From: Gammaproteobacteria bacterium
GTDB lineage: Bacteria; Pseudomonadota; Gammaproteobacteria; Steroidobacterales; GCA-2729495
Assembly (NCBI GenBank): GCA_003695765.1
Contig: RFHQ01000003.1
Span: 1 to 64,000 of the forward strand
Length of the DNA stretch: 64,000 nucleotides
Direction of reading: 5' to 3'
Each line of letters begins with the position of its first letter. The stretch's first letter is position 1. The notes under the pieces were generated by a model. That model was not told the DNA's origin, searched no databases, and was given only the letters and a program-made list of their open reading frames with translations. The position numbers and the translations under genes were made by a program. Shown in pieces: positions 36,517 to 39,696 of the stretch.

Positions 36517-36825
36517 TGGTGCCCGGGGCCGGACTCGAACCGGCATGGGGTCGCCCCCGAGGGATTTTCTTACCCGCTACGGCTTTCGCCGCTGCTTCGC
36601 ATTTGGGGTCTGGACTTTCTCTTTGCCATGCCCCGTTGCCGGGGTGCAGGCAGGAGCCGTCAAGTCTCTACACTTTCCGCGATCCGGATCGCGGCTTAGC
36701 TCGGGATCGCCACCACCGCGATGTGCTGAGGGTTCCCCGAATTTGACTCCATTCACGCCGGCGGTTTCCCGGCCGGGTGCTCAAGTTTTCAAGTCCCTTG
36801 CGTCTACCAATTTCGCCACCCGGGC
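36517..36825 (-). tRNA. leuZ: tRNA-Leu(UAA), interrupted in the anticodon by a group I intron (exon 1: 36791-36825; exon 2: 36517-36568)
   Basis: Spliced minus-strand product GCCCGGGTGGCGAAATTGGTAGACGCAAGGGACTT|AAAATCCCTCGGGGGCGACCCCATGCCGGTTCGAGTCCGGCCCCGGGCACCA (87 nt). Acceptor GCCCGGG/CCCGGGC and anticodon stem AGGGA/TCCCT pair; loop CTTAAAA gives anticodon UAA. Same position as leuZ after pgsA-glyW-cysT in E. coli. Confidence 0.93.
36569..36790 (-). other. Self-splicing group I intron (likely IC3), 222 nt, no ORF, inserted between U34 and A35 of tRNA-Leu(UAA)
   Basis: Exon 1 ends in U and the intron ends in G. Core elements in order: P TTCGGGGAACCC (36730-36741), Q GATCCCGAGCTAAGCC (36693-36708), R GTAGAGACTTGACGG (36657-36671), S AAGAGAAAGTCC (36612-36623). 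P4-like TCGGG/CCCGA and P7-like GACTT/AAGTC pairings. Confidence 0.92.
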
Positions 36826-36898: not shown

Positions 36899-36972
36899 TG
36901 GAGGCTAGGGTCGGAATCGAACCGGCGTACACGGCTTTGCAGGCCGCTGCATAACCACTCTGCCACCTAGCC
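36899..36972 (-). tRNA. cysT: tRNA-Cys(GCA)
   Basis: GGCTAGGTGGCAGAGTGGTTATGCAGCGGCCTGCAAAGCCGTGTACGCCGGTTCGATTCCGACCCTAGCCTCCA; acceptor GGCTAGG/CCTAGCC; loop CTGCAAA. Confidence 0.95.
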
Positions 36973-37077: not shown

Positions 37078-37153
37078 TGGAGCGGGCAACCAGATTCGAA
37101 CTGGCGACCTATACCTTGGCAAGGTATCGCTCTACCAACTGAGCTATGCCCGC
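37078..37153 (-). tRNA. glyW: tRNA-Gly(GCC)
   Basis: GCGGGCATAGCTCAGTTGGTAGAGCGATACCTTGCCAAGGTATAGGTCGCCAGTTCGAATCTGGTTGCCCGCTCCA; anticodon GCC. Confidence 0.96.
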
Positions 37154-37189: not shown

Positions 37190-37801
37190 TCAAGAATGCC
37201 CGTCCTGCCCCATCAGGTGCGGCCAGGCCGCGCGGATGTACACGGCCATGGACCAAAGGGTCAGGCCGGCCGCCAGCAGCAGCAGGCCCTTGCCGATCGC
37301 GTAGACCGGCAGTCCCGCAACGGGCAGGTACCAGAGCATGGCGCCGAGTCCGACCATCTGCAGGATGGTCTTGAGCTTGCCGGATCCGGACACGGCGACG
37401 TGGTGGCGCCGGCCCAGTTCCGCCATCCATTCGCGCAGCGCCGACACCGTCAGTTCGCGGCCGATGATGATCGCCGCGGTGATCGCGACATGCGGCTGCG
37501 GGTCGGCTTCCACGATGACCGCCAGGGCCGTGGTCACCATCAGCTTGTCCGCGACCGGGTCCAGGAAGGCGCCGAACTGCGAGGTCTGGTTCAGGCGCCG
37601 CGCCAGGTAGCCGTCGAGCCAGTCGGTCAGGCCGGCCAGCGCGAACAGCAGCGCCGAGGCTGGCCGCGTCCAGGAACCGGGCCGGTCCAGCCAGGGCAAG
37701 CTGTCCGAGAGCTCCGGCAGGTAGAAGACCAGCACCACCAGCGGGATCGCGGCGATGCGAAACCAGGTCAACAGGGTGGCGATGTTGAGCTGTGGGGACA
37801 T
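37190..37801 (-). CDS. pgsA: CDP-diacylglycerol-glycerol-3-phosphate 3-phosphatidyltransferase
   Basis: CDP-alcohol phosphotransferase motif TDWLDGYLARRLNQTSQFGAFLDPVADKLMV. Confidence 0.96.
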   Translation of the reverse strand: MSPQLNIATLLTWFRIAAIPLVVLVFYLPELSDSLPWLDRPGSWTRPASALLFALAGLTDWLDGYLARRLNQTSQFGAFLDPVADKLMVTTALAVIVEADPQPHVAITAAIIIGRELTVSALREWMAELGRRHHVAVSGSGKLKTILQMVGLGAMLWYLPVAGLPVYAIGKGLLLLAAGLTLWSMAVYIRAAWPHLMGQDGHS

Positions 37802-37869: not shown

Positions 37870-39696
37870 TCAGTCCCGGCCGCCGTTCAGGCGCTCGAAG
37901 ATTCGCTGCGCCAGCGCCTGGCTGATCCCCCGGACCGCGGCGATGTCCTGCACGCCGGCGCGCCGCAGGCCCTGGATGCCGCCGAAGCGCTGCAGCAGCG
38001 CGCGGCGCCGCTTCGGGCCGATCCCCGGCAGCTCCTCCAGCACCGATGCCTGGCGCTGGCGGCCGCGGCGCTGGCGGTGGCCGGTGATTGCGAAGCGGTG
38101 CGCCTCGTCGCGCAATTGCTGCAACAGGTGCATCGCGGGCGAAGCCGCGGGCAGGCGGACGGGATGCCGGTGGCCGGGCCGGTAGAGCCGGTCGCGCGCG
38201 GCCCGGCGCCCTTCTCCCTTGGCGATCCCGGCCAGTGCCACGCCGCCGAGCTGCAGTTCGTCGAACACGGCGCGGGCCGCCGCCAGCTGGCCCGGCCCAC
38301 CATCGATCAGCACCAGGTCCGGCAGCTTGCCCTCGGCTCGGCCACCGCGTCGATAGCGCCGCCGCAGCGCTTCAGCGATCGCGGCGTAGTCGTCACCGGC
38401 CGCGGCCGAGCGGATGTTGTAGCGCCGGTAGGCGGACTTGTCGGCGCCATGCAGGCCCCAGGCGACACAGGCGGCCACGGTGTGCTCGCCGCCGGTGTGG
38501 CTGACATCGAAGCACTCGATCCGTTCCGGCACCGACGGCAGCGCCAGCGCGTCGCCCAGCGCAGCGAAACGGCTCGCGAGGTCCGCGCGGCTGGCGAGCC
38601 GCGCCGCGACCGCCTCGGCAGCGTTGCGCGCGGCCATGTCCAGCCATTGACGCCGCAGCCCCCGGCAGCGTGTGGCGATGCGCACGCGCCGCCCGGCGCG
38701 CTCCGACAGCGCCGCCTCCAGCAATTCGCGCCCGGGGATCTCCCCGGCGAGCAGGATCTCCGGCGGCGGCGCCTGGTCGAAGTAGTGCTGGGCGACGATC
38801 GCTGCGAGGACCTCGCCGGCGCTGCCGTCCAGCCCGCCTCGGGCGAACAGGTTGCGACTGCCGAGCACGCGGCCGTTGCGGACCATCAGCAAGCCCACCG
38901 CCTGCACGCCGCCATCGCTGGCCAGGGCGAGCGCATCGGCATTGCACCGGCGGCTGCCGCTGACCGACTGGCTGGCCTGCAGGCGCTGCAGGGCGGCGAT
39001 CTGGTCGCGCAGCCGGGCCGCGGCCTCGAAATCGAGTTGTTCGGCGGCCGCTTCCATCCGGGCGGCCAGCCGGTCCAGCAGCCGCTCGTCCCGACCCGCG
39101 AGGAAATCCATCGCGTTCTCGACGTCCTGGCGATAGGCCTCGGCGTCGATCAGTCCGACGCAGGGTGCCGTGCAGCGGCCGATCTGGTGTTGCAGGCAGG
39201 GGCGGCTCCGGTTGGCGAAGAAGCTATCCCGGCATTGCCGGACGCGGAACAGTTTCTGCAGCTGCCCCAGCGCTTCGCGCACGGCCCAGGCCGTCGGATA
39301 CGGCCCGAAATACCGGCCCCTGCCCTTGCGCGCGCCGCGGTGAAACTCGAAGCGCGGGAAGGGCTGATCGCTGCTTACGTGGATATAGGGATAGCTCTTG
39401 TCGTCACGCAGCAGCACGTTGTAACGCGGTCGGTGCGCCTTGATCAGGTTGTATTCCAGCAGCAGCGCTTCGTGCTCGCTGGCCGTCACGGTGACCTCGA
39501 TGCGGGCGACCTGGTTCATCAGCGCCTGGGTCTTCGGGTGATGCGCGCGCGACCCGAAATAGCTGGTCACGCGCCGCTTCAGATCGCGCGCCTTGCCGAC
39601 GTAGAGGAGCTCGCCGCGGGCATCCAGCATCCGGTAGACCCCGGGGCGATGCGTCAGGGTGCGCAGAAATTCCTCGTGATCGAACTGCTCAGCCAT
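37870..39696 (-). CDS. uvrC: Excinuclease ABC subunit C
   Basis: GIY-YIG start LTHRPGVYRMLDARGELLYVGKARDLKRRVTSYF; IECFDVSHTGGEHTVAACV; C-terminal HhH. Confidence 0.97.
   Translation of the reverse strand: MAEQFDHEEFLRTLTHRPGVYRMLDARGELLYVGKARDLKRRVTSYFGSRAHHPKTQALMNQVARIEVTVTASEHEALLLEYNLIKAHRPRYNVLLRDDKSYPYIHVSSDQPFPRFEFHRGARKGRGRYFGPYPTAWAVREALGQLQKLFRVRQCRDSFFANRSRPCLQHQIGRCTAPCVGLIDAEAYRQDVENAMDFLAGRDERLLDRLAARMEAAAEQLDFEAAARLRDQIAALQRLQASQSVSGSRRCNADALALASDGGVQAVGLLMVRNGRVLGSRNLFARGGLDGSAGEVLAAIVAQHYFDQAPPPEILLAGEIPGRELLEAALSERAGRRVRIATRCRGLRRQWLDMAARNAAEAVAARLASRADLASRFAALGDALALPSVPERIECFDVSHTGGEHTVAACVAWGLHGADKSAYRRYNIRSAAAGDDYAAIAEALRRRYRRGGRAEGKLPDLVLIDGGPGQLAAARAVFDELQLGGVALAGIAKGEGRRAARDRLYRPGHRHPVRLPAASPAMHLLQQLRDEAHRFAITGHRQRRGRQRQASVLEELPGIGPKRRRALLQRFGGIQGLRRAGVQDIAAVRGISQALAQRIFERLNGGRD

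Follow-up and report, generated by a model that had tools for sequence, protein, structure and literature searches.

A group I intron splits the anticodon of tRNA-Leu(UAA) in a gammaproteobacterium and has relatives on plasmids, phages and integrative islands

The tRNA-Leu(UAA) gene at positions 36517–36825 (minus strand) of the 64,000-nt stretch of DNA analysed here (the window) is interrupted between U34 and A35 of its anticodon by a 222-nt group I intron. We put at about 0.94 the probability that this is a working gene with a self-splicing intron, situated in a resident locus and belonging to a clade that is inherited mainly vertically with occasional loss, horizontal spread through mobile copies being likely. 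When joined, the exons (35 + 52 nt) form an 87-nt tRNA, CCA included, with a cloverleaf fold (−41.1 kcal/mol, 2 extra nt included), and after splicing this tRNA has a long variable arm and a UAA anticodon. The original prediction had placed the insertion exactly between U34 and A35, with the same exon and intron lengths, and is confirmed by the sequence and by ARAGORN, which in intron mode, with no exons given, calls tRNA-Leu (taa) and places a 222-nt intron after nucleotide 35.

Without intron mode ARAGORN misses the gene, and a default Rfam scan does not list the intron because its score of 31 bits lies below the curated gathering score of 50 of RF00028. The proposed check against this model succeeded in E-value (3.4e-6 in a 441-base scan, 4.7e-6 genome-wide, with the full model, 1–253, covered) but fell short in score. 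The gathering cut-off is the threshold of one model and not a structural feature of the group I family, and it appears insensitive to this branch, since RF00028 yields no match up to E=0.01 on the related intron of Gordonia phage Daredevil. Together, the ARAGORN intron call, the RF00028 E-value and a covarying P1–P9 fold (Table 1) bear out the assignment of a group I intron to this tRNA. A scan for consensus promoters and terminators found none at the tRNA-Leu(UAA) gene itself. Standard tRNA and Rfam annotation overlook the gene, so that an essential-looking tRNA seems absent.

Table 1. Features of the split tRNA-Leu(UAA) gene and its locus, in window coordinates.
Feature	Position	Strand	Basis
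tRNA-Leu(UAA) 3' exon, 52 nt, A35 onward, CCA encoded	36517..36568	-	sequence; ARAGORN intron mode
Group I intron, 222 nt (GAAAAC...GGTAAG), without endonuclease gene	36569..36790	-	RF00028 E=3.4e-6; P1-P9 fold with covariation
P9 hairpin, capped by invariant GAAA tetraloop	36580..36591	-	12-sequence alignment and fold
P3 3' strand and P8 hairpin	36624..36658	-	12-sequence fold
P7 5' strand (GAGACUU), bulged A, partner 36612-36617	36662..36668	-	12-sequence fold, covariation
P4 (UCGGGG/UCCCGA), enclosing P5	36701..36740	-	12-sequence fold
P3 5' strand (GGAGUC), partner 36653-36658, double changes in 4/6 pairs	36745..36750	-	12-sequence fold, covariation
Element of intron fold	36780..36793	-	12-sequence fold
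tRNA-Leu(UAA) 5' exon, 35 nt, ending at U34 of anticodon (..GGGACTT)	36791..36825	-	sequence; ARAGORN intron mode
tRNA-Cys(GCA), upstream neighbour	36899..36972	-	ARAGORN
tRNA-Gly(GCC), upstream neighbour	37078..37153	-	ARAGORN
PgsA-like ORF, conserved locus marker	37190..37801	-	translation; same order in L242
UvrC ORF, served to find named relatives	37870..39696	-	translation

A BLAST search of 60 relatives yielded 11 further complete tRNA-Leu genes split at the same site, two of them from the same genus, and the recurrence of the homologous split gene in 11 more genomes therefore excludes an assembly error or chance. Across the resulting alignment of 12 sequences, the P1–P9 fold has 95.9% of its cells paired and changes on both sides in 41 of 85 pairs, a count that includes the tRNA's own stems, with a covariation score of 0.330 compared with 0.117 in shuffles (0/500 as high). 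Sliding the 3' partners as a control lowers pairing to 32–48%, a comparison that favours the drawn fold inasmuch as it was drawn by hand on the window's own sequence; the double changes are independent of this. The catalytic core P3–P8 with its P3/P7 pseudoknot is supported, P3 being 100% paired with four double-changed pairs and P7 100% paired with one double change, namely the last U-A pair, which becomes A-U in two sequences. Including the tRNA-Arg intron of the window genome leaves this pattern of P3/P7 covariation intact. The complementary pairs named in the original prediction (P3, P4 and P7) are real, with P3 and P7 covarying, and the predicted exon 1 ending in U and intron ending in G hold in 12/12 sequences, all of which keep both the U.G pair of P1 at the 5' splice site and the terminal G of the intron. 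Intron length ranges from 215 to 332 nt among the 12 sequences, with the variation mainly in P6, P8 and P9. The intron is probably of subgroup IC3; the fold as drawn shows traits of that subgroup, with a compact core, P2 and P9 each capped by a GNRA loop, and neither P5abc nor P7.1 at its periphery.

The anatomy and conservation of the intron are directly observed, and the window intron is very probably self-splicing and old in its order. The chemistry, taken from the group I family, would consist of two GTP-started transesterifications that remove the intron from the precursor, with a guanosine bound in P7 attacking the U.G splice site in P1, and the freed U34 then attacking after the terminal G, so that U34 would be joined to A35.

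Two further group I matches occur in the window genome. The first splits tRNA-Arg(UCU) between nucleotides 34 and 35 by a 211-nt group I intron (L003 1476–1763, G000:C85), the gene being flanked by tRNA-Pro(UGG) and tRNA-His(GUG). The second interrupts the T-loop of tmRNA (L002 about 1173–1798, G000:C114) and is missed by ARAGORN. In the same-genus genome G002 and the family members G013 and G017 (L086 1605–2021, L092 and L090), the Arg intron contains extra sequence with an ORF, which in G002 is a PD-(D/E)XK endonuclease (PF11645, E=6e-37); the copy in G017 looks shortened. In our own reading of its sequence, G013 also has a split tRNA of the Ile(CAU) type.

Relatives of the intron are found on mobile elements. 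The plasmid CP094621.1 of Bradyrhizobium sp. ISRA435, typed as conjugative, carries an unannotated whole split tRNA-Leu(UAA) (L095 3995–4285), and the Tritonibacter mobilis megaplasmid NZ_CP015231.1 carries a split tRNA with a related intron (L096 2908–3235), which is probably tRNA-Thr(UGU), the U/G rule placing the split at 36/37; ARAGORN names another isotype. Viral loci were drawn from IMG/VR scans with three core patterns, and among the matches listed, together with five other loci, intron-mode calls gave Leu(UAA) in 93 of 193 cases, a proportion that is not a frequency, since the set contains duplicates and the patterns are biased towards Leu-type cores. At several loci ARAGORN in intron mode called isotypes such as SeC, Tyr(ata), Gln and Ser; these calls probably result from shifted boundaries and were treated with caution. 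The viral contigs L258, L267, L297, L174, L138, L340, L385, L452 and others have tRNA introns of about 680–810 nt with HNH ORFs, many of them in Leu(UAA). Among the loci checked, two (L142 and L174) lie beside clearly phage-type genes, for example those for ligases, RtcB and thymidylate synthase.

Phage Daredevil has an unannotated split tRNA-Lys(UUU) (NC_048021.1 41820–42131; L097 4949–5260) adjoining its integrase. Close by lies a 16-nt copy of the anticodon arm without interruption, and R1, our core covariance model, matches the intron at 107 bits. In PMC10865867 the phage is described as integrating at tRNA-Lys-TTT without rebuilding it, encoding no tRNA of its own and forming clear plaques, although the split tRNA-Lys(UUU) was found in it. 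The T-loop of this tRNA is unusual (ATCGAAA), so the tRNA may not work, which would fit the clear plaques. According to a 2014 review, phage introns had until then been observed in protein-coding genes alone (PMC3984707). The presence of the same intron branch on phages, a plasmid and integrative islands provides a concrete route for the horizontal movement of tRNA introns, with these copies, some carrying homing endonucleases, being the likely means of spread.

The window's own copy sits in a resident uvrC-pgsA-Gly-Cys-Leu locus, the neighbouring tRNA calls and ORF translations upholding the predicted pgsA-Gly-Cys-Leu placement. Counted as R1 matches in any gene, introns of this kind occur in 15/41 genomes of the family (E 1e-3), 218/397 sampled genomes of the order (E 1e-4) and 12/150 genomes phylum-wide (E 1e-6, own included), a contrast that is rough since the cut-offs differ. 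The suggestion of a rare family is thus wrong for this order. ARAGORN assigns every one of the 23 best matches newly retrieved from the order to Leu(UAA); among the weaker R1 matches are Leu(CAA), Arg(UCU) and further isotypes. A tree of 86 introns (short search, midpoint root for drawing only, rows chosen by best model score) unites the sampled resident Leu introns of the order in a single clade (SH-aLRT 99) that spans several families of this one gammaproteobacterial order and is mostly grouped by family, from which we infer mainly vertical inheritance with losses. The placement of f13 within the window genome's own family probably reflects either some exchange between members of the order or a poorly resolved tree. 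The copies in G015 and G031 join the Bradyrhizobium plasmid intron (support 100).

That the window intron groups with these resident introns, apart from the element and plasmid copies, and lies in a resident locus whose neighbouring ORFs include no integrase and no endonuclease, makes a recent arrival of a phage- or island-borne intron unlikely, despite the many viral and element copies, the HNH and PD-(D/E)XK genes of relatives, and a patchy presence within the genus that would each fit such an arrival. This patchiness is evident in the same-genus genome G004, where the intron is absent and an uninterrupted tRNA-Leu(UAA) (..GCAAGGGACTTAAAATCCCTCGG..) equals the joined exons across the junction, the match of the intronless allele around the junction being GGGACTTAAAATCCC. 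The best named relatives by UvrC, Gammaproteobacteria MAGs at 60–61% identity, both have an intact Leu(UAA).

A transfer from a cyanobacterial trnL gene is less probable still. The group I intron of cyanobacterial and plastid trnL(UAA) sits at U34/A35. The patchy presence of that intron has been explained by one gain and several losses (PMC4476775), and its interruption of the same tRNA at the same site, with a fitting core layout, is what would favour a cyanobacterial source; the nearest relatives that we found are instead proteobacterial and viral, and a viral scan with a cyanobacterial-like P7/P3 core gave 0 matches. In site and core layout the intron agrees with the predicted cyanobacterial/plastid trnL type; a shared descent would be conjecture.

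UUA codons are rare: 12 named genes have none, and a roughly drawn gene set for the 64 kb window has 5 among 18,542 codons, so that demand for tRNA-Leu(UAA) is low, which may make slow or poor splicing tolerable. This rarity, the gene's visibility to ARAGORN only in intron mode and an assembly that is 92% complete (222 contigs), from which a second Leu(UAA) could therefore be missing, would suit a decaying pseudogene whose intron no longer splices whilst another Leu(UAA) does the work, but we regard this as very improbable given that the exons form a full cloverleaf with CCA, that double changes across genera maintain the intron pairs, that an intact Leu(UAA) is absent among the 35 intact tRNA genes of the window genome (Leu CAA, CAG, GAG and UAG being present), and that G015, a complete genome, yielded no Leu(UAA) besides a related split gene: of its 43 tRNA matches, which were listed in full, nine are long, and these comprise Ser, Tyr and four Leu genes other than Leu(UAA).

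A working, resident tRNA-Leu(UAA) gene with a self-splicing intron is our preferred reading. In the family members G015 and G031, the resident tRNA-Leu has been disrupted in its anticodon arm by an integrative element that brings an intron-bearing substitute. In G015 (L242; one contig, listed as 100% complete), the uvrC-pgsA-Gly-Cys locus keeps only the 5' half of tRNA-Leu, ending GGACTTAAAATCC; these 13 bp recur at the start of the 3' half, which lies about 9.6 kb away. The intervening element has a gene for a tyrosine recombinase, a split copy of tRNA-Leu(UAA), and OLD-like, Fic and Schlafen-like genes among its cargo. G031 (L243) has the same layout over about 3.8 kb. The same-genus genome G008 has an intact tRNA-Leu gene. 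The integrase matches of G015 and G031 (E 3e-5 and 8e-5) are significant and just under the Pfam cut-off. Displaced 3' fragments of tRNA-Leu(UAA) starting in the anticodon arm were also found in the intronless relatives G007, G014 and, in one case, G019 (L469, L470 and L471), and the anticodon arm is, as judged from sequence, a repeated integration site in the family.

This anatomy suggests that the intron hides the replacement tRNA from the integrase in the G015 and G031 elements. More broadly, an anticodon-loop group I intron may shield tRNAs from integrases, with element-borne replacements escaping their own integrase and resident split tRNAs losing the integration site, an idea that we advance tentatively and with more doubt than confidence. 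Two genomes display the element anatomy behind it for Leu, and one phage has a similar arrangement for Lys; the shielding itself would be a role read into that anatomy. Uninterrupted anticodon-arm copies of at least 12 nt were present at 9 of 193 loci (the listed IMG/VR matches plus five others), compared with null means of 2.9 (other isotypes) or 5.5 (same isotype), but convincing copies occurred only in G015, G031 and Daredevil (two records), several others being trivial-looking or mis-joined. With so few convincing cases, an attachment-site link does not account in general for split tRNAs in viruses. In the family, the exclusion of islands by resident introns, and the reverse, at Leu(UAA) was not significant (0/9 vs 5/32, Fisher p=0.57).

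The window intron belongs to a known kind. Vepritskiy 2002 is reportedly a paper on a subsurface gammaproteobacterium. Putative group I introns have been reported in tRNA-Leu(UAA) and tRNA-Arg(UCU) of the Beggiatoaceae BOGUAY and Ca. Thiomargarita nelsonii (PMC4853749), which supports the earlier claim that the family had been seen before in gammaproteobacteria and assigns the window intron to that kind. The same two tRNAs are interrupted in the same bacterial class; the Beggiatoaceae are, however, another lineage, the structure or type of their tRNA introns was not determined in that study, and the present analysis adds a fold supported by covariation, an intronless allele and, in tmRNA, a third intron. 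The tmRNA T-loop is a known location of group I introns (PMC11915505), and the intron of the window genome lies at the main known site, between T-loop nucleotides 6 and 7 by the U/G rule. It is a separate intron, matched weakly by the Leu core model (27 bits). What is new is the context, namely an order rich in group I introns and the mobile relatives.

The closest parallel to the broken and replaced tRNA-Leu loci is the tRNA-dependent lysogeny of Guerrero-Bustamante and Hatfull 2024 (PMC10865867). Its features, as given in the passages of that paper used here, recur in G015 and G031, where an element with a tyrosine integrase has broken the resident tRNA without rebuilding it and carries a tRNA of the same isotype. 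Those passages contain no description of an intron in the crossover core of a replacement tRNA, the word 'intron' occurring once in the text. The G015 and G031 elements differ in that a group I intron interrupts their replacement tRNA precisely at the crossover core. Through the broken and replaced loci, a connection of group I introns with tRNA-dependent integration becomes open to test.
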